Made by a program: the position numbers and the translations under genes
Shown: positions 16,244 through 22,489 of the stretch, one piece after another
Numbering within the stretch: the stretch's first letter is position 1
Layout: the number at the start of each line of letters is the position of its first letter
From: Actinomycetota bacterium
GTDB taxonomy: Bacteria; Actinomycetota; Actinomycetes; Nanopelagicales; Nanopelagicaceae
Direction: 5' to 3'
Assembly (NCBI GenBank): GCA_016870835.1
Contig: VGAG01000008.1
Span: forward strand, 1-37,358
DNA length: 37,358 bases
Notes under the pieces: generated by a model
Database searches by the model: none
Seen by the model: only the letters and a program-made list of their open reading frames with translations
Told to the model about the DNA's origin: nothing

Positions 16244-16268
16244 TACTTATCTCCATCCCGTTCAATCT

Positions 16269-16307
16269 CCGACCCACGCGGTCGGGTGTGTCGCCTCTTC
16301 GGACACA
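16269..16307 (-). other. Tandem hairpins in the rpsL 5' leader
   Basis: Two adjacent perfect inverted repeats lie between the promoter candidate and the rpsL start. One has six-bp arms at 16269-16274 and 16280-16285 (CCGACC) with a five-base loop. The other has six-bp arms at 16287-16292 and 16302-16307 (TGTGTC) with a nine-base loop. They would fold in the leader RNA about 25-65 bases before the ATG. An autoregulatory role for S12 or S7 is possible but unproven. Confidence 0.5.
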
Positions 16308-16317
16308 AGGGCGCGAG

Positions 16318-16345
16318 GCTATAGGAAGCCCTGCGAGACGGTCAA
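16318..16345 (-). promoter_or_regulatory. Candidate promoter for rpsL-rpsG-fusA-tuf
   Basis: On the minus strand a TTGACC -35 element (16345-16340) is separated by 16 bases from a TATAGC -10-like element (16323-16318). The predicted transcript starts near 16311 and carries a leader of roughly 65-70 bases with two hairpins. This is the only good -35/-10 pair I see between the divergent rpsL and antitoxin genes. Confidence 0.5.
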
Positions 16346-16363
16346 AACGGGATAGTGAGCCAA

Positions 16364-16394
16364 ACACGCCGTTTTTTACCCCCCGACACGCCGA
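16364..16394 (-). repeat. Repeated ACACGCCG element upstream of rpsL, also found before rpoB
   Basis: The octamer ACACGCCG (plus-strand reading) occurs at 16364-16371 and 16386-16393, 22 bases apart, about two helical turns. The second copy sits in an 11-mer, 16384-16394 (CGACACGCCGA), which recurs exactly at 29930-29940 in the rpoB upstream region, next to a C-run in both cases. It could bind a shared regulator of the rpsL and rpoB transcripts. That is inference. Confidence 0.4.
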
Positions 16395-16405
16395 CCAAAA
16401 AGCGG

Positions 16406-16441
16406 TTAGCCTTTACTTATGGCTAACAAAGTAAAGGCTAA
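16406..16441 (+). promoter_or_regulatory. Perfect 13-bp inverted repeat around the antitoxin start codon
   Basis: Arms at 16406-16418 (TTAGCCTTTACTT) and 16429-16441 are exactly complementary, with a ten-base loop at 16419-16428 that contains the ATG of the AbrB-type antitoxin. TAGCCT at 16407-16412 fits a TAnnnT -10 placed for a leaderless transcript starting at the ATG, and no Shine-Dalgarno is visible. The repeat is a good candidate operator for the AbrB-domain protein, or a start-codon hairpin in RNA if a longer transcript exists. Confidence 0.6.
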
Positions 16442-16733
16442 GCGGAGCCCTAAGAAATCCGCATCTCCCCGTCCTCGGCGCGGAAGAGCCACCTCATCTC
16501 GGATAAGTTCAAAGAACCAGATAACAATCCCGGTGGAGGTGCTGCGAGAGATGTCTTTAAAGCCTGGAGATCGAGTCCAGTTTCATCTCGATAAGAGTAA
16601 TCGACTAGTAGTTACACCGATTGATAGCGAGTGGTTAAAAACTCTTGATGAAGTGCTTGGAAGTATGTCGGGGATGTGGGATGGCTTCGATCTCCGGAAA
16701 GAAAGAGAAGAGTGGGACAGCAAATACTTTTAG
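16419..16733 (+). CDS. AbrB/SpoVT-family antitoxin
   Basis: This 104-residue protein is probably the DNA-binding antitoxin of the PIN toxin that overlaps its end. A swapped-hairpin AbrB domain covers about residues 28-68 (SSKNQITIPVEVLREMSLKPGDRVQF, then LVVTP). The N-terminal 25 residues are unusually rich in Lys, Arg, Pro and Ser. The C-terminal 35 residues, acidic-basic and Trp-containing (WDGFDLRKEREEWD), are the likely toxin-binding segment. The start codon sits in the loop of a 13-bp inverted repeat, which suggests autorepression. It diverges from rpsL. Confidence 0.85.
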   Translation: MANKVKAKRSPKKSASPRPRRGRATSSRISSKNQITIPVEVLREMSLKPGDRVQFHLDKSNRLVVTPIDSEWLKTLDEVLGSMSGMWDGFDLRKEREEWDSKYF

Positions 16734-17095
16734 ATTCAACAGTAGTTATCGCAGCTCTGAGTGATACAGACTCGCACTACGTGAATGCCCAAGAAATATT
16801 CTCACAAACTTCACGAATGCAAATCGCGGTAAGCGCCGTGTCTGTAGGGGAGATCTTGATTCGGCCCTCGGCTGCTGGCGAAGAATCAGTAGAGCTCTTT
16901 CTATCTAGGCTCGATAAATTAATTTACCGAATTATCCCGTTCGAGAAAGACCATGCTCGACTGGCTGCTTTGATTAGATCTAAACAGAAGGCGACATTTG
17001 TGGACTCTATGATTATTGCAACCGCAATCCTCGAGAATCGGATGCTAATTTCTTTTGACCGAAAGATGATGGGTATCTATGAACGTATTAAGTAG
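16712..17095 (+). CDS. PIN-domain ribonuclease toxin (VapC-like)
   Basis: Likely a Mg-dependent RNase toxin neutralised by the upstream AbrB-type protein. I chose the GTG at 16712, giving 127 residues and a 22-base overlap with the antitoxin gene, because the PIN fold begins at once (ILLDST). An ATG at 16676 is in frame but adds only non-homologous residues. The acidic catalytic set looks complete: D8, E47 (SVGEIL), D98 (FVDSMIIATA) and D116 (ISFDRKM). The end overlaps the next gene by 17 bases. RNA target unknown. Confidence 0.85.
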   Translation: MGQQILLDSTVVIAALSDTDSHYVNAQEIFSQTSRMQIAVSAVSVGEILIRPSAAGEESVELFLSRLDKLIYRIIPFEKDHARLAALIRSKQKATFVDSMIIATAILENRMLISFDRKMMGIYERIK

Positions 17096-17717
17096 ACCGA
17101 AGCTGCGCGGCATCATCCATTTAGTTATGTCACCACTTGCGTTGGTTGCGGGACTTACTCTCATCACAATTACAAGTGAGCTGCGCGGTCGAATCACGTT
17201 AACTATCTTCACCTTGACTGCGGTATCACTCTTTACGTGTAGCGCTATCTATCACCGAGTTCCTTGGAGCCCCACTGCTAAAGCAGTCTGGCGCCGGATA
17301 GACCACGCAAATATTCCGCTCCTTATTGCTGGCACCTATACCCCGTTCTCCATTTATCTATTGGAAAAGCAGCAAGCGGTAATACTTTTATCGATTGTTT
17401 GGGGTGGGGCGCTGCTCTCTGGAATCTTTCGAGTCTTCTGGCTAAAGGCGCCTAAGTGGCTCTATGTTCCTATTTATCTCGCTCTGGGTTGGGCCGCATT
17501 TATCTACTTTCCCGACTTCTACCGCGCAGGCGGATTATTGGTCTTTGCCTTGATCGCCTTGGGCGGTGTTCTTTACTCAGTCGGCGCAATCATCTACGCC
17601 TTCAAAAAGCCCAACTTCTCAATTAATTGGTTTGGATTTCATGAGCTCTTCCATGCGCTAACCGCCGCGGCTTTCATTTCGCACTTTATCGCTGCAGTTG
17701 TTGTTATTGTTCGCTAA
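17079..17717 (+). CDS. trhA: Hemolysin III / TrhA-family seven-helix membrane protein
   Basis: A 212-residue integral membrane protein of the PAQR/HlyIII superfamily with about seven hydrophobic helices. The superfamily metal-site residues are present: S55-x3-H59 (SAIYH), D75 (RRIDHANI) and H188-x3-H192 (HELFH). Bacterial members have been linked to membrane homeostasis; the old name hemolysin should not be read as a proven toxin. The gene overlaps the PIN toxin by 17 bases and is followed two bases later by deoD, so all four genes are probably one transcript. Confidence 0.85.
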   Translation: MNVLSRPKLRGIIHLVMSPLALVAGLTLITITSELRGRITLTIFTLTAVSLFTCSAIYHRVPWSPTAKAVWRRIDHANIPLLIAGTYTPFSIYLLEKQQAVILLSIVWGGALLSGIFRVFWLKAPKWLYVPIYLALGWAAFIYFPDFYRAGGLLVFALIALGGVLYSVGAIIYAFKKPNFSINWFGFHELFHALTAAAFISHFIAAVVVIVR

Positions 17718-17719
17718 CT

Positions 17720-18421
17720 ATGAGCGTACATATCGGAGCAGAAAAAGGCGAAGTCGCCGAACGAATACTTCTTCCTGGTGATCCCCTAAGAGCAAAGTGG
17801 GTCGCTGAGAACTATCTTGAAAATGTTAAGCAATACAACTCAGTTCGCAATATGTTCGGATTCACCGGAACTTATAAAGGCGAGCGCGTTTCGGTCCAAG
17901 GTACCGGAATGGGACTTCCCTCTGCATCTATCTATGTAACTGAACTTTTTGATGAATACGATGTTCAAGTCGCTATTCGAATTGGAACTGCTGGTGGCAT
18001 CCAAGATAAAACTAAGGTTGGCGACCTCGTGCTTGCTATGACCGCATCTACCGATTCAAATATCAATCGCCGTTTTACAAATGGCCTTGATTTTGCGCCG
18101 CATTGCGATTTCCATCTTCTGATGGCAGCTTATGAAGCAAGTAAGAAGTTTGATCGGGTTCACGTTGGTGGCGTCTCTTCTATGGATTTCTTCTATGACG
18201 AGACTGATTCAGCTAAGAAGCTCGCTCAACACGGAGTTCTTGCCCTTGAGATGGAGGCAAATCAGCTCTACTCAATCGCCGCTCGAAAGAACCGGCGCGC
18301 CCTTGCAATTATGACTATTAGCGATCATGTCTTTACCCATGAAGCAATGGATTCAGCTGCGCGCGAGCGGACCTTGAACGATATGGTCGAAGTAGGGCTA
18401 CACGCGTTAATTAAGGGTTAA
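17720..18421 (+). CDS. deoD: Purine nucleoside phosphorylase, DeoD type
   Basis: This enzyme cleaves purine (deoxy)ribonucleosides with phosphate to base and (deoxy)ribose 1-phosphate in purine salvage. The 233 residues keep the hexameric-PNP active site: H4, the phosphate residues G20, R24, R43 and R87, the ribose site E177-M178-E179, and the catalytic D202 (SDHVFT) with R217 nearby. The LEMEA and SDHVFT motifs point to DeoD rather than uridine phosphorylase. Two-base gap after trhA; ends four bases from the convergent SDR gene. Confidence 0.92.
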   Translation: MSVHIGAEKGEVAERILLPGDPLRAKWVAENYLENVKQYNSVRNMFGFTGTYKGERVSVQGTGMGLPSASIYVTELFDEYDVQVAIRIGTAGGIQDKTKVGDLVLAMTASTDSNINRRFTNGLDFAPHCDFHLLMAAYEASKKFDRVHVGGVSSMDFFYDETDSAKKLAQHGVLALEMEANQLYSIAARKNRRALAIMTISDHVFTHEAMDSAARERTLNDMVEVGLHALIKG

Positions 18422-18428
18422 TCCCTTA
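18412..18428. other. Small palindrome spanning both convergent stop codons
   Basis: TAAGGG at 18412-18417 and its complement CCCTTA at 18423-18428 flank a five-base loop. The repeat covers the deoD stop (18419-18421) and the SDR stop (18428-18426 on the minus strand). It lacks a U-run in either direction, so it would be at best a weak or factor-dependent terminator. Confidence 0.4.
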
Positions 18429-19187
18429 CGGCATCACCAAACCGCCATCAACTGGAACGGTAATTCCAGTTACATAGCTAGAGGCATCGCTAACTAGCCA
18501 GATCAAAGTGGCGGCTAGCTCTTCCGGCTCCCCTAATCGTCCAGCTGGTGCAAACATCTTGAGCATCTCGACCATTTCTTTTGGTAGTTCATCGCTCATC
18601 TCAGAGGGAAAAAATCCAGGGGCAAGAGCATTTACTCGGATCTTCTTTCTTCCGGTCCATTGCGCTGCAAGATCTCTAGTTAATCCAATTAGCCCAGCTT
18701 TACTTGATGCATAAGCAGCTTGTGGAAGGCCTTGTGGTTTTATCCCAAGAATGCTTGAGATATTAACAATTACTCCGCCATCTTTATTTGCCTTTGCAAA
18801 TGCTTGGGCCATCCAATAGGCACCAAATAAATTAACATCAAGCACATCTCTAAATTGTTCAGGAGTTTCGCGCGTTGCCGGTATTGCAGTGCCAACGCCT
18901 GCGTTATTTACCAAGATATCTGCCTTACCAAATTTCTCGATTGCAAATGCAATTAAGGCTTCACACTCTTGCGGACTAGTTACATCGGTGCGTTTTGCGG
19001 CGTACTTTCGCCCCGCAGCTTCTACTAATTTTCCAGTTTCGGGAAGGCGCTCTTCACGACGCGCGCCCAGAACAACATCTGCCCCTGCTTCAGCAAGTGC
19101 TTTTGCAAATGCAACACCGAGTCCAGATGAGGCGCCGGTTACGACAGCGACCTTTCCATCAAGGCGAAAGCGGTCTAGAACACTCAT
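18426..19187 (-). CDS. Short-chain dehydrogenase/reductase
   Basis: A classical NAD(P)-dependent SDR of 253 residues. I chose the ATG at 19187 because AGGAGAGGG precedes it by a few bases; the in-frame start at 19253 would run into the divergent gene. The cofactor motif is TGASSGLG (G18, G22, G24), NNAGVG is at 94-99, and the catalytic set is N119, S144/S145, Y159, K163. Substrate cannot be told from sequence. It is divergent from an acyl-CoA dehydrogenase across 43 bases, so a 3- or 4-hydroxyacyl-CoA substrate is a reasonable inference. Confidence 0.88.
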   Translation of the reverse strand: MSVLDRFRLDGKVAVVTGASSGLGVAFAKALAEAGADVVLGARREERLPETGKLVEAAGRKYAAKRTDVTSPQECEALIAFAIEKFGKADILVNNAGVGTAIPATRETPEQFRDVLDVNLFGAYWMAQAFAKANKDGGVIVNISSILGIKPQGLPQAAYASSKAGLIGLTRDLAAQWTGRKKIRVNALAPGFFPSEMSDELPKEMVEMLKMFAPAGRLGEPEELAATLIWLVSDASSYVTGITVPVDGGLVMP

Positions 19188-19218
19188 TTTCCCTCTCCTA
19201 ATTTGGACGAAGTATGCG

Positions 19219-19224
19219 TACGGT
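19219..19224 (+). promoter_or_regulatory. Candidate -10 element for a leaderless ACAD operon transcript
   Basis: TACGGT fits the TAnnnT consensus and ends six bases before the ATG at 19231. No Shine-Dalgarno sequence precedes that ATG, so transcription may begin at the start codon. I see no convincing -35 element. The divergent SDR start is only 43 bases away. Confidence 0.35.
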
Positions 19225-19230
19225 ACTCGC

Positions 19231-20442
19231 ATGGATTTCGGCCTCAGCCCCAAGGCAACCGAATATGCCGCAAAACTGCAAGCCTTTATGGATAACGAGG
19301 TCTTTCCAGCAGAAACGATCTATCACCAAGAGCGCGCTGCCTTCATCAAAGCGGGTAATCCCCACAAACTCCCACCAGTTATTGAAGAGTTAAAGAAGAA
19401 AGCTAAGGCGCAAGGACTTTGGAATCTCTTCTTGCCTCATCTTGGTCATCATTTAAAAGTAACTGATTATGCAACGCTAGCTGAGATTACTGGTTGGTCA
19501 CCTGATATTGCTCCCGAAGCAATCAACTGTGCAGCTCCTGATACTGGAAATATGGAAGTTCTAGATATGTTCGGAACGGAATCGCAGAAAAAGAAATGGC
19601 TTGAGCCACTTTTAAATGGCGAGATTCGCTCGGGCTTTGCAATGACAGAGCCGGATGTTGCTTCAAGTGATGCCCGAAATATTCGCACCAGTATCAAACG
19701 TGAGGGCGAGCACTACGTAATAAATGGAACTAAGTGGTGGACAACTGGGGCTATGGACGAGCGATGCAAAATTTTGATTGTCATGGGCAAAACCAATCCT
19801 GAAGCAGATGAACATAAACAACAATCCATGGTCTTAGTTCCAATAGATACCCCAGGTGTGAAAGTTATTCGCAATCTTGATGTCCTTGGATACGTAGACC
19901 AACATGGCCACGCCGAAATCTCATTTACCGATGTAAAAGTTCCAATCTCTAATTTGATTGGAAAGGAAGGCGAAGGTTTTGCAATCGCCCAAGCGCGACT
20001 TGGTCCAGGACGAGTTCATCACTGTATGCGCGCCATCGGAATGGCTGAGCGGGCCCTCCAATTAATGATTAAGCGCTCACTAGTTCGAAACCCATTTGGA
20101 AAAGAGTTGGCGCGACAAGGGGTAATTCAAGAGTGGATTGCGAAGGCTCGTATCGATATCGAGCAGGCCCGGTTATTGGTCTTAAAAACAGCGTGGCTTA
20201 TTGATAATCAGGGAGCTAAAGCAGCACGTAAAGAAATCGCTGCAATAAAGGTAGCGGTACCGCAAATGGCACAAGAGATTATTGACCGCGCGATCCAGGC
20301 CCACGGCGGAGCCGGAGTAAGTCAAGACACTCCCCTTGCGGCGATGTTTGCCGGTATCCGGGTGCTTCGAATTGTTGATGGGCCGGATGAAGTTCATCTC
20401 CGCGATTTAGCAAGGTTAGAACTCAAGCCTTACATTTCATGA
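19231..20442 (+). CDS. ACAD10/11-like acyl-CoA dehydrogenase family flavoprotein
   Basis: A 403-residue FAD enzyme of the acyl-CoA dehydrogenase superfamily. I chose the ATG at 19231; the open frame upstream is antisense to the SDR gene. Motifs are FAMTEPDVASSD at 136-147, the subgroup-typical LGPGRVHHCMRAIG at 258-270, QAHGGAG at 356-362 and VDGPDEVH at 382-389. These resemble the dehydrogenase half of ACAD10/ACAD11 and bacterial LvaC rather than fatty-acid ACADs. The stop overlaps the start of a phosphotransferase gene by four bases. It probably turns a 4-phosphoacyl-CoA into an enoyl-CoA; that role is inferred from family and neighbour. Confidence 0.85.
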   Translation: MDFGLSPKATEYAAKLQAFMDNEVFPAETIYHQERAAFIKAGNPHKLPPVIEELKKKAKAQGLWNLFLPHLGHHLKVTDYATLAEITGWSPDIAPEAINCAAPDTGNMEVLDMFGTESQKKKWLEPLLNGEIRSGFAMTEPDVASSDARNIRTSIKREGEHYVINGTKWWTTGAMDERCKILIVMGKTNPEADEHKQQSMVLVPIDTPGVKVIRNLDVLGYVDQHGHAEISFTDVKVPISNLIGKEGEGFAIAQARLGPGRVHHCMRAIGMAERALQLMIKRSLVRNPFGKELARQGVIQEWIAKARIDIEQARLLVLKTAWLIDNQGAKAARKEIAAIKVAVPQMAQEIIDRAIQAHGGAGVSQDTPLAAMFAGIRVLRIVDGPDEVHLRDLARLELKPYIS

Positions 20443-21464
20443 GCGAGCTAACTCCGGTTCGCGCGGAAGATTCCTTTGATATCGCGAAAGTACATAACTG
20501 GTTAAGCAAATATATTTCTGAAAGTGAATTACCTAAAGTAGAACAATTTAGAAGTGGCGCATCAAACCTAACCTATTTGTTAACTTATCCAGATCGTGAG
20601 TTAGTTCTTCGCCGCCCGCCAGTCGGAACTAAAGCGATTTCGGCTCATGACATGAAACGTGAATTTCTAATCCAATCAAGGTTAAAGCCAGGCTATGACT
20701 TAGTCCCAAAGGTAATCGCGCTCTGTGAAGATCATGAAGTTCTCGGCTCTGATTTTTATGTCATGGAGCGGATTAAAGGAGAGATTTTCCGGCGTGATGT
20801 TCCGGAATCACTCACTAGAGAAGATATCTCAATTATGGCTACCAGCCTGGTGTCAGGGTTGGCCCAACTTCACAGCGTTGATTCAAGTGTGCTACAAGAA
20901 CTCAATAAGGGTTCTGGATATGTAACGCGCCAGGTTGAAGGTTGGTCAAAGCGTTATCGAAATGCGCTTACCGATGATGTTCCGGATGGCGAAGTTGTAA
21001 TGAATTGGCTAGCGGAAAATAAGCCCGAAGATGTTGATTCCTGCATCATTCATGGTGATTGGCGAATAGACAATATGGTCTTTGATTTAGGGCAGAAAAA
21101 GCTAGTGGGCGTGCTCGATTGGGAGCTTGCCACTGTAGGCGATCCCCTCATGGATCTTGGCTCAGCTCTTGCATATTGGGTCGATCGTGATGATGATCCA
21201 GAGTTTGCTTCGTTGCGCCGGCAACCAAGTCATCTTGAAGGTATGCCCACAAGAAACGAATTCATTAAGAAATATCTCGAGTTAAGCGGGAGAAGTTGTG
21301 ACGACTTTACTTTCTATGAAGTATTTGGCCTCTTTAGATTGAGCGTAATTATTCAACAGATCTGGGCGCGCTATAGAGCTGGCCAGACTTCAAATCCGGC
21401 CTTTAAGGGTTTTGGTGTCGGCGTCAAAATTCTCATCAATCGTGCGCAAGGATTAATCGCATGA
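20439..21464 (+). CDS. APH-fold phosphotransferase, ACAD10/11 N-domain / LvaA-like
   Basis: A 341-residue kinase of the aminoglycoside phosphotransferase fold. It shows the nucleotide loop FRSGASNLTY (37-46), LVLRRPP, the catalytic loop HGDWRIDN (205-212, with D207 and N212) and the metal-binding DWE (227-229) in VLDWELATVGDPLMDL. This set matches the kinase half of mammalian ACAD10/11 and LvaA, which phosphorylate the 4-hydroxyl of hydroxyacyl-CoAs. Four-base overlaps with both the ACAD before it and the ADH after it indicate one operon. It is not likely to be a drug-resistance enzyme. No LvaB-like small partner is visible. Confidence 0.85.
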   Translation: MSELTPVRAEDSFDIAKVHNWLSKYISESELPKVEQFRSGASNLTYLLTYPDRELVLRRPPVGTKAISAHDMKREFLIQSRLKPGYDLVPKVIALCEDHEVLGSDFYVMERIKGEIFRRDVPESLTREDISIMATSLVSGLAQLHSVDSSVLQELNKGSGYVTRQVEGWSKRYRNALTDDVPDGEVVMNWLAENKPEDVDSCIIHGDWRIDNMVFDLGQKKLVGVLDWELATVGDPLMDLGSALAYWVDRDDDPEFASLRRQPSHLEGMPTRNEFIKKYLELSGRSCDDFTFYEVFGLFRLSVIIQQIWARYRAGQTSNPAFKGFGVGVKILINRAQGLIA

Positions 21465-22444
21465 AGGCCGGACGTATCACCGTAGCAACTCGCAACTTCG
21501 AAGTGAAGGAAGTACCAACTCCAACTGCGCAATCTGGTCAAGTTCGGATAAAGGTCGGCGCTGCCGGTGTTTGTTTATCAGATGTTCATTTCTTAGATGG
21601 AACTCTAAAACCAGGATACTTAAAGAGCGATGAGGTAACTCTTGGCCATGAGGTAGCAGGAACTATTGATCAAGTTGGCCCGGAAGTAAATGAGTTTCAA
21701 ATCGGAGATCGAGTTCTTGTAATTGCTGGTGAGCGAAATGAGTTAAATCAGATAACAACTCTTGGTTTTGATTATGATGGTGGTTATGCCGAATATGTAA
21801 TTGCTAAGCAATCGCTCGTTGTAAAAATTCCAGATAATCTTCCCTTTGAACAAGCAGCGATCATCCCCGACGCTGTCTCTACTCCTTGGGCTGCAATATC
21901 TACAACTGCGAAAATCAAAAGCGGTGAGAACGTTGCAGTTTTTGGAGTCGGCGGTCTAGGAATTCACGCAGTACAACTCCTTAAATTGCTCGGCTGTAGC
22001 AAGGTAATTGCAATCGACCCAAGAAGCGATGCTCGCGATAAAGCCCTAGAAATAGGGGCTGATTTGGCCTTTGATCCCAGCGATGAGGCCCTAAAAAAAC
22101 ACCGGGGGCTTAACGCTTGCTTCGATTTTGCTGGTGTAACTGCGGTTAGAAAACAGGCATTATCTCTTCTTGGTGAAGAAGGAAGATTGGTGATTGTGGG
22201 AATCGCAAATGAACCAATCACAATTCCAAATGACATGGCCTTTACCTATATGCGCACCCAAGTCCTTGGACATTACGGCTCTGAGCGTCATCACACTGAA
22301 GAGTTAGTGCAATTAGCTAGAGATGGGAAACTAAACCTTTCTAAATCAGTCTCTGAAATTCTCCCTCTTGCTCAAGCAGAGTTGGCCCTTGAGAAATTAG
22401 AGAAGAAGATTGGTAATCCAATTCGAATCGTACTTAAACCATAA
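21461..22444 (+). CDS. MDR-superfamily alcohol dehydrogenase, zinc type without structural zinc lobe
   Basis: A 327-residue NAD(P)-dependent medium-chain dehydrogenase. Catalytic zinc ligands are probably C38 (GVCLSDVH), H63 and E64 (LGHEVAG), with an acidic third ligand near D137. The Rossmann motif is GVGGLG at 162-167. The usual four-cysteine structural zinc loop (near 90-110) has no cysteine. The ATG overlaps the phosphotransferase stop by four bases. It may oxidise a secondary alcohol in the same pathway. Substrate unknown. A bidirectional terminator follows. Confidence 0.85.
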   Translation: MKAGRITVATRNFEVKEVPTPTAQSGQVRIKVGAAGVCLSDVHFLDGTLKPGYLKSDEVTLGHEVAGTIDQVGPEVNEFQIGDRVLVIAGERNELNQITTLGFDYDGGYAEYVIAKQSLVVKIPDNLPFEQAAIIPDAVSTPWAAISTTAKIKSGENVAVFGVGGLGIHAVQLLKLLGCSKVIAIDPRSDARDKALEIGADLAFDPSDEALKKHRGLNACFDFAGVTAVRKQALSLLGEEGRLVIVGIANEPITIPNDMAFTYMRTQVLGHYGSERHHTEELVQLARDGKLNLSKSVSEILPLAQAELALEKLEKKIGNPIRIVLKP

Positions 22445-22480
22445 AAAAACCCCGGCTATTTCTAACCGGGGCCTTTTATT
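22443..22480. terminator. Bidirectional terminator between the ADH operon and rpoC
   Basis: A six-bp all-GC stem (CCCCGG at 22450-22455 and CCGGGG at 22466-22471) with a ten-base loop. Seven A residues at 22443-22449 become a U-run on the minus strand, ending rpoC transcripts. CCTTTTATT on the plus side ends the ADH operon. Confidence 0.85.
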
Positions 22481-22489
22481 ACTTCTTAT

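Follow-up and report, generated by a model that had tools for sequence, protein, structure and literature searches.

A split ACAD10/11-type module in a freshwater actinobacterium, predicted to serve phosphorylation-dependent 4-hydroxyacyl-CoA catabolism

Results

A four-gene cassette with overlapping genes

The DNA analysed here, called the window, is a 37,358-nt stretch that makes up contig C8 (VGAG01000008.1) of the draft genome GCA_016870835.1 (1.01 Mb, 76% complete), from a member of the Nanopelagicaceae; all coordinates are positions in this window. Its order, the Nanopelagicales, comprises the acI freshwater actinobacteria. Our subject is a cassette in which a gene for a short-chain dehydrogenase/reductase (SDR) is divergent from a plus-strand series encoding an acyl-CoA dehydrogenase (ACAD), a kinase of the aminoglycoside phosphotransferase (APH) fold and a medium-chain dehydrogenase/reductase (MDR), in that order. 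The ACAD and kinase genes overlap by four bases (20439-20442), as do those of the kinase and MDR (21461-21464). An earlier note made from the DNA alone had described these four genes and two overlaps and had quoted the motifs FAMTEPDVASSD, GPDEVH, HGDWRIDN and VLDWEL, and all of them are present in the sequence. We place the start of the ACAD at ATG 19231 (403 aa) rather than at GTG 18889, where the mechanical open reading frame (ORF) begins, and that of the SDR at ATG 19187 (253 aa) rather than at the TTG at 19253, which leaves 43 bp between the divergent starts. The features are as follows.

18426..19187, minus strand: SDR oxidoreductase, 253 aa (Pfam adh_short_C2, 199 bits)
19188..19230, no strand assigned: putative divergent promoter gap, 43 bp, carrying TGCGTACGGTAC (SDR ribosome site on the other strand)
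19231..20442, plus strand: ACAD10/11 (LvaC)-type acyl-CoA dehydrogenase, 403 aa, predicted to eliminate phosphate from 4-phosphoacyl-CoA (449 bits to mouse ACAD11)
20439..21464, plus strand: APH-fold kinase, 341 aa, predicted 4-hydroxyacyl-CoA kinase in the LvaA role (PF01636, 165.5 bits)
21461..22444, plus strand: MDR of the zinc alcohol dehydrogenase family, 327 aa (Pfam ADH_N and ADH_zinc_N)
22444..22477, terminator-like on the minus strand: hairpin where the MDR and rpoC genes converge (15-pair stem, then a T-rich tail)

The ACAD carries the phosphate-binding residues of ACAD10/11

In a sequence search of the PDB, the ACAD matched three ACAD11 chains and 4hr3 (titled 'putative acyl-CoA dehydrogenase') at 413-449 bits, and the remaining matches reached at most 155. 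We take 4hr3 to be from Mycobacterium abscessus. The best match was mouse ACAD11 (8v3u, 449 bits, against 155 for the best of any other kind), with identity at 219 of 395 aligned residues. In the study that solved ACAD11, R626, H634 and R637 are modelled on the 4-phosphate, non-conservative swaps of these residues are the most disruptive to the ACAD step, and D753 is the catalytic base (PMC12440821). Allowing for a PDB chain index one lower than the numbering of that study, R256, R261, H264-C265-M266-R267 and D383 of the window ACAD align with R626, R631, H634-R637 and D753 of ACAD11, D383 being the Asp in GPDEVH. The genome's other ACAD, on contig C5, is without HCMR and has the usual YEGT. 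Among 140 ACADs of the cassette's kind in the loci examined, 80 of which were found with a sequence pattern just upstream of the HCMR motif, 134 carry HCMR, five HAMR and one neither. No NCBIfam model scored above its cut-off for the ACAD, or for the kinase. At the level of sequence, these comparisons show that the ACAD is of the ACAD10/11 kind and retains the residues that bind the phosphate there, in agreement with the earlier assignment.

The kinase is of the APH type that accompanies ACAD10/11

The kinase matched 9o56 (249 bits), ACAD11 (163 and 159 bits) and 3dxp (163 bits) in the PDB; the next match was 25-hydroxysteroid kinase at 31 bits, and antibiotic kinases scored 30 bits or less. 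Its R164, D207 and N212 align with R176, D220 and N225 of ACAD11. In an alignment of 21 rows, R74-E75, D207 and N212 are invariant and R164 is kept in at least 90%; the Arg beside the alphaC Glu (R74-E75), the catalytic Asp and Asn and the CoA-side Arg are thus all retained. Since the alphaC Arg is R86 in the published numbering (PMC12440821) and 84 when counted on the PDB chain, this residue was identified from its position next to the Glu. A structure model of the kinase (predicted local distance difference test, pLDDT, 92.6) aligned best with 3dxp (VIA-align, Z 31.7). Choline and antibiotic kinases reach Z 20-22 against the same model, so the fold alone does not decide the kinase type, and 9o56 was not among the best 50 matches of either fold search. 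Taken together, the comparisons show membership of the ACAD10/11-associated APH kinases, as judged from sequence.

Both proteins were placed in trees built by a quick method. The kinase tree has 71 rows, its named and order rows thinned, and a midpoint root for drawing only; in it the window kinase groups with other Actinomycete kinases of its type, and one step out it is joined by those of Bacillota and Deinococcus and by 9o56, both groups being starred. In the ACAD tree (97 rows, thinned), the window ACAD falls with the ACADs of loci L203 and L197, which carry the same kinase type, in a starred group of 14, a single row of which has the other type; the group that holds mouse ACAD11 is a different one, also starred. 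As the trees place the window ACAD with ACADs that carry its own kinase type, the two genes appear to have been largely inherited together.

The ACAD and kinase genes are linked in the loci compared within the order

Among 296 genomes of the order, the ACAD had a match in 68 (E <= 1e-100), the kinase in 65 (E <= 1e-60) and the SDR in 66 (E <= 1e-85). ACAD and kinase are present together in 63 genomes and ACAD and SDR in 60; Fisher values for this co-presence are overstated because the genomes are related and many are incomplete. Four genomes from two genera (G033, G034, G035 and G041) have the ACAD and no match to the window-type kinase. In the three of these that were examined, a kinase of the other branch precedes the ACAD, the SDR stands in front in two while the third is cut by a contig end, and no MDR was seen. 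Beyond these, G141 has the ACAD and no kinase match, and G205 and G208 have the kinase and no ACAD match.

For 40 of the 68 genomes with the ACAD, we compared one stretch each. In all 40, fewer than 300 bp separate the ACAD from a kinase of one or the other branch. A divergent SDR more than 55% identical is found in 37 (tblastn) and the MDR is present in 30; in the other ten, one of which (L073) is cut by a contig end, no MDR was seen. Flanking genes differ between genera while the unit stays. Given that the pair is this close in every one of the 40 loci, at various genomic places, its arrangement is not due to chance; the conserved-neighbourhood search suggested in the earlier note found the two families this close in all 40 of these relatives. 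In L050, fusA is split into two ORFs, perhaps by a draft frameshift.

Distribution outside the order

Kinase matches were found in 80 of 394 genomes of the class (E <= 1e-55), 12 of them from the cassette's own family, and identities among these matches show a gap between 48% and 38-39%. We took 20 loci from the stronger matches in other families. Twelve have an ACAD more than 45% identical within 3 kb and three further loci (L192, L193 and L194) have an HCMR ACAD, 37-38% identical, 56-992 bp away, so that 15 of the 20 kinase loci have an HCMR ACAD within 3 kb.

Starting from the ACAD, we assembled 88 named loci, eight from plasmids and 80 from genomes, the latter being the best 80 of the pattern scan (by title, 76 actinobacteria and no Pseudomonas). 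A kinase of either branch lies within 3 kb in 52 of them. Loci without one include L084, L095-L099, L101, L103, L106-L108, L110, L112, L114, L123, L124, L128 and L133; we infer that in such loci the kinase lies elsewhere or the substrate is different. Among the ACADs without a nearby kinase, one starred group in the ACAD tree, with 13 rows, unites mycobacteria with Gordonia, a Rhodococcus plasmid and a Geodermatophilus. By annotation, kinase, ACAD and SDR lie near each other on plasmids of Streptomyces, Deinococcus, Cytobacillus, Bosea, Sphingopyxis and Rhodococcus erythropolis, and no kinase is annotated beside the ACAD in Rhodococcus pyridinivorans or Cupriavidus necator pHG1. In one Mycobacterium, which has the other kinase branch, a 59% identical SDR relative lies 21 bp from an ACAD of the HAMR variant.

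The SDR is a frequent partner and the MDR an optional one

The classical active site of the SDR is complete (TGASSGLG, YASSK), and the ARR that follows its second strand is invariant in 41 rows. The MDR keeps the catalytic-zinc Cys, has a short structural-zinc lobe and carries an AIDP motif; the Cys and Asp are invariant, and the GHE motif is kept in at least 80% only. We read these features by the general rules for zinc ligands and by the rules that ARR marks NADP(H) in SDRs and that AIDP, with its Asp, marks NAD+ in MDRs, which suggests that the SDR would use NADP(H) and the MDR NAD+. In Pseudomonas, the oxidoreductase LvaD reduces levulinyl-CoA (PMC6692424). With LvaD as the model, the SDR probably reduces a 4-oxo group to the 4-hydroxyl. 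SDR orthologs (76-77% identical) also occur in genomes without an ACAD match (G053:C4:21877-22635 and G107:C31:13306-14064).

No NCBIfam model among those listed for the MDR was above its cut-off, and its best PDB match was 1rjw at 135 bits. It had no match (E <= 1e-40) in eight of 14 chosen genomes, including G237, which consists of a single contig; the 14 were chosen mainly as genomes whose cassette seemed to be without the MDR, and the others for comparison. From these comparisons the MDR is best described as an optional alcohol dehydrogenase. The earlier note had the SDR and MDR interconverting keto and hydroxy acids. That the SDR belongs to the unit is supported by the 60 genomes it shares with the ACAD, and its reaction is a prediction; because the MDR is optional, such a role for it is unsupported beyond its family.

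A conserved intergenic gap and a variable genomic setting

The gap between the SDR and ACAD genes was compared in 41 sequences, two in which a kinase intervenes and one interrupted by a string of Ns being left out. In the remaining 38, which include the window, it measures 41-56 bp. TGCGTA[CAG] stands directly before the ACAD ATG in 36 of the 38, and a TAnnnT box lies 5-8 nt 5' of that ATG in all 38 (6 nt in the window). An element resembling TGCGTACGGTAC directly 5' of the ACAD ATG is kept across genera and genomic contexts. A scan with the sigma-70 consensus found no promoter-like site in the region. By the general rule that ties a TAnnnT box to leaderless starts, we infer that the gap may be a leaderless promoter travelling with the unit. 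At the other end of the cassette, the terminator-like hairpin at 22444-22477 is weak as statistics, since the region holds five terminator-like sites and 4.3 are expected.

Between rpsL and rpoC, the strand of the ACAD also encodes, upstream of it, an AbrB-like/PIN pair, an HlyIII-family protein and a DeoD-type purine nucleoside phosphorylase. In the cassette's own genus these genes and the cassette (16244-22489 in the window) open the rpoC-rpsL neighbourhood, on the opposite strand except for the SDR. The earlier note was correct in lodging the cassette between rpoC and rpsL; relatives carry the unit at different genomic places, so this site is peculiar to the genus and incidental, and we set aside an insertion there as part of the function. 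A foreign origin was likewise set aside on composition, as the GC content of the cassette (45-47%) is near that of its neighbours (47-52%).

Discussion

We believe that the cassette is a split ACAD10/11 (LvaA/LvaC-like) module for phosphorylation-dependent 4-hydroxyacyl-CoA catabolism, a reading to which we assign a probability of about 0.8. This was the central claim of the earlier note, and protein family, active-site residues, linkage and phylogenetic profile agree with it. In our model, the SDR would convert 4-oxoacyl-CoA to 4-hydroxyacyl-CoA with NADPH, the kinase would phosphorylate the 4-hydroxyl, and the ACAD would eliminate the 4-phosphate to give 2-enoyl-CoA, its FAD being recycled internally. 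The single FadB and thiolase of the genome (the FadB/FadA spiral) could then finish the breakdown of the 2-enoyl-CoA. Likely substrates would be 4-hydroxy- and 4-oxoacyl-CoA stop intermediates from the shortening of longer hydroxylated or oxidised fatty acids, an idea stated in PMC12440821 for mammals and for microbes fed ricinoleate. Also in favour of the model, either protein of a split pair from Burkholderia was able to stand in for the corresponding ACAD10 domain in vitro (PMC11342911).

The remainder of the genome has one FadB-thiolase pair, which fits this scheme, together with one electron-transfer flavoprotein (ETF) pair and one ordinary ACAD. It has three PF00501 matches, none on the window contig. 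Two are similar, MenE-like fragments at contig ends beside menaquinone-type genes, and the third, on contig C9, is FadD-like and by its look a general acyl-CoA ligase. This is the only general ligase that turned up in the draft genome, which makes levulinate itself a less favoured substrate. The overlapping cassette genes leave no room between them for an LvaB-sized gene, although no genome-wide search for LvaB was made; the earlier remark that neither LvaB nor a ligase lies nearby therefore stands. These absences are not damaging, since the lva region analysed in Pseudomonas citronellolis is without lvaB, and P. putida can still use levulinate for growth when lvaE is mutated (PMC6692424). FadB as a co-requisite proved a weak candidate. 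PF00725 is present in 252 of the 296 genomes of the order, and it is missing from three of the 68 ACAD-bearing genomes (G216, G251 and G266) compared with 41 of the 228 others (Fisher p 0.006, confounded by kinship, the lists being compared by eye).

Several observations weigh against our interpretation. An HCMR ACAD was not found in five of the 20 kinase loci from other families (L195, L196, L199, L204 and L208), and in L204 an ordinary ACAD stands beside a window-type kinase. A kinase is lacking within 3 kb in 36 of the 88 named ACAD loci, loci at contig ends being counted too. The comparison with LvaA and LvaC uses mouse ACAD11 as a stand-in for their sequences, and with a host genome that is 76% complete, the absences of a ligase and of LvaB carry little weight. 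In the kinase tree, the ACAD11 kinase groups with 3dxp and proteobacterial kinases (starred), apart from the window kinase. Both proteins are far closer in bits to ACAD11-like proteins than to others, and the kinase branch is separate; on these comparisons the window kinase appears to be related to the mammalian ACAD11 kinase without being its nearest relative. In addition, the ACAD11 kinase domain, which is partly resolved and aligned over 224 residues, reaches Z 20.6 by fold, below the Z 26-27 of 25-hydroxysteroid kinase (9ft5, 9fsg) and Rv3168. Given this separation in the tree and these higher fold scores, the substrate of the kinase may differ. The same logic of phosphorylation and elimination could serve another alcohol, such as a steroid or isoprenoid side chain. 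We consider this very unlikely, given that 25-hydroxysteroid kinase reaches 31 bits by sequence as against 159-163 for ACAD11, that the ACAD partner is of the 4-phosphoacyl-CoA kind, and that no steroid-specific name appeared among the eight window proteins scanned.

It is similarly improbable that the ACAD is an ordinary fatty-acyl-CoA dehydrogenase that passes electrons to ETF beside an unrelated APH kinase. The genome does encode the ETF pair and the protein keeps the general ACAD domains; however, the three charged active-site residues missing from conventional ACADs (PMC12440821) are all present, an ordinary ACAD is already encoded elsewhere, and the gene is linked to that of the kinase. 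To an aminoglycoside or macrolide resistance kinase we give practically no credence: the Pfam family is APH, but NCBIfam resistance models score 18-35 bits against cut-offs of 205-625, and the linkage is metabolic. A minor possibility that we do take into account is that the SDR and MDR are unrelated passengers, for example sugar or alcohol dehydrogenases, and that the pathway consists of the kinase and ACAD only. The gaps in MDR occurrence described above are consistent with this, as are the SDR matches in six genomes without an ACAD match. The SDR also passes the cut-off of NCBIfam PRK07231.1, a broad subfamily named 'glucose 1-dehydrogenase' (220 against 215), and its best PDB match (165 bits) is named gluconate 5-dehydrogenase, as is the best-scoring NCBIfam model among the 25 of 238 matches listed (237, below its cut-off of 279). 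SDR subfamily names rarely fix the substrate, and for this reason we do not follow the sugar-dehydrogenase name. Furthermore, the co-presence of SDR and ACAD, the divergent gap of 41-56 bp kept across contexts, the SDR relative beside the HAMR ACAD in Mycobacterium and the overlap of the kinase and MDR genes in this genome argue against passengers.

A more speculative extension of the 4-hydroxyacyl-CoA model, and one that we regard as unlikely, is that the SDR and MDR act on the same carbon with opposite stereochemistry and so invert the 4-hydroxyl. The ACAD10 kinase prefers the R-form (PMC11342911); this preference and the two cofactor types are what suggest the idea. The MDR would oxidise the S-form to 4-oxoacyl-CoA, the SDR would reduce this to the R-form, and an R-preferring kinase and the ACAD would remove the hydroxyl. 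If true, the streamlined cell would have a built-in module for clearing racemates of oxidised lipids, and lineages without the MDR would use only one enantiomer.

The chemistry of phosphorylation and elimination is known; the arrangement, the extra partner enzymes and the host are, to our knowledge, new. Mammalian ACAD10 and ACAD11 share with the cassette the ACAD kind and its active-site residues as well as the kinase fold and catalytic residues. In contrast, they are one fused chain, whereas the cassette has two genes with the ACAD first, a kinase from another branch, no HAD domain, and SDR and MDR partners. The LvaABCDE operon of P. putida KT2440 likewise brings together a kinase, an ACAD and an SDR in the roles of LvaA, LvaC and LvaD (PMC6692424), a likeness by published roles and not by LvaA and LvaC sequences; the cassette differs in having neither LvaB nor a ligase, a divergent SDR and an added MDR. 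The split pairs on the Streptomyces, Deinococcus, Cytobacillus, Bosea and Sphingopyxis plasmids belong to the same two families and have SDRs nearby. Unlike the cassette, most of the named loci from actinobacteria that have a kinase have one of the other branch, and its gene usually precedes that of the ACAD. Among the loci examined, the four-gene unit with the MDR was seen only in the host's family and in two named loci from metagenome-assembled genomes (L093 and L094) that group with that family. 25-hydroxysteroid kinase is similar in fold and, going by the titles of its entries, in phosphorylating an alcohol, and differs from the cassette kinase in sequence and in its steroid substrate. An open-access literature search, mostly of titles, returned none on such a module in freshwater or streamlined actinobacteria.

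The cassette marks a kinase branch and two dehydrogenase partners whose roles are candidates only. Our analysis suggests that very small bacterial genomes keep a route that handles 4-hydroxy acids by phosphorylation, as was recently assigned in mammals. The route would stand beside a single-copy set for beta-oxidation, in 68 of 296 genomes examined in the order, and with so small a genome and one copy of that set, this would be an uncluttered setting in which to study its purpose.

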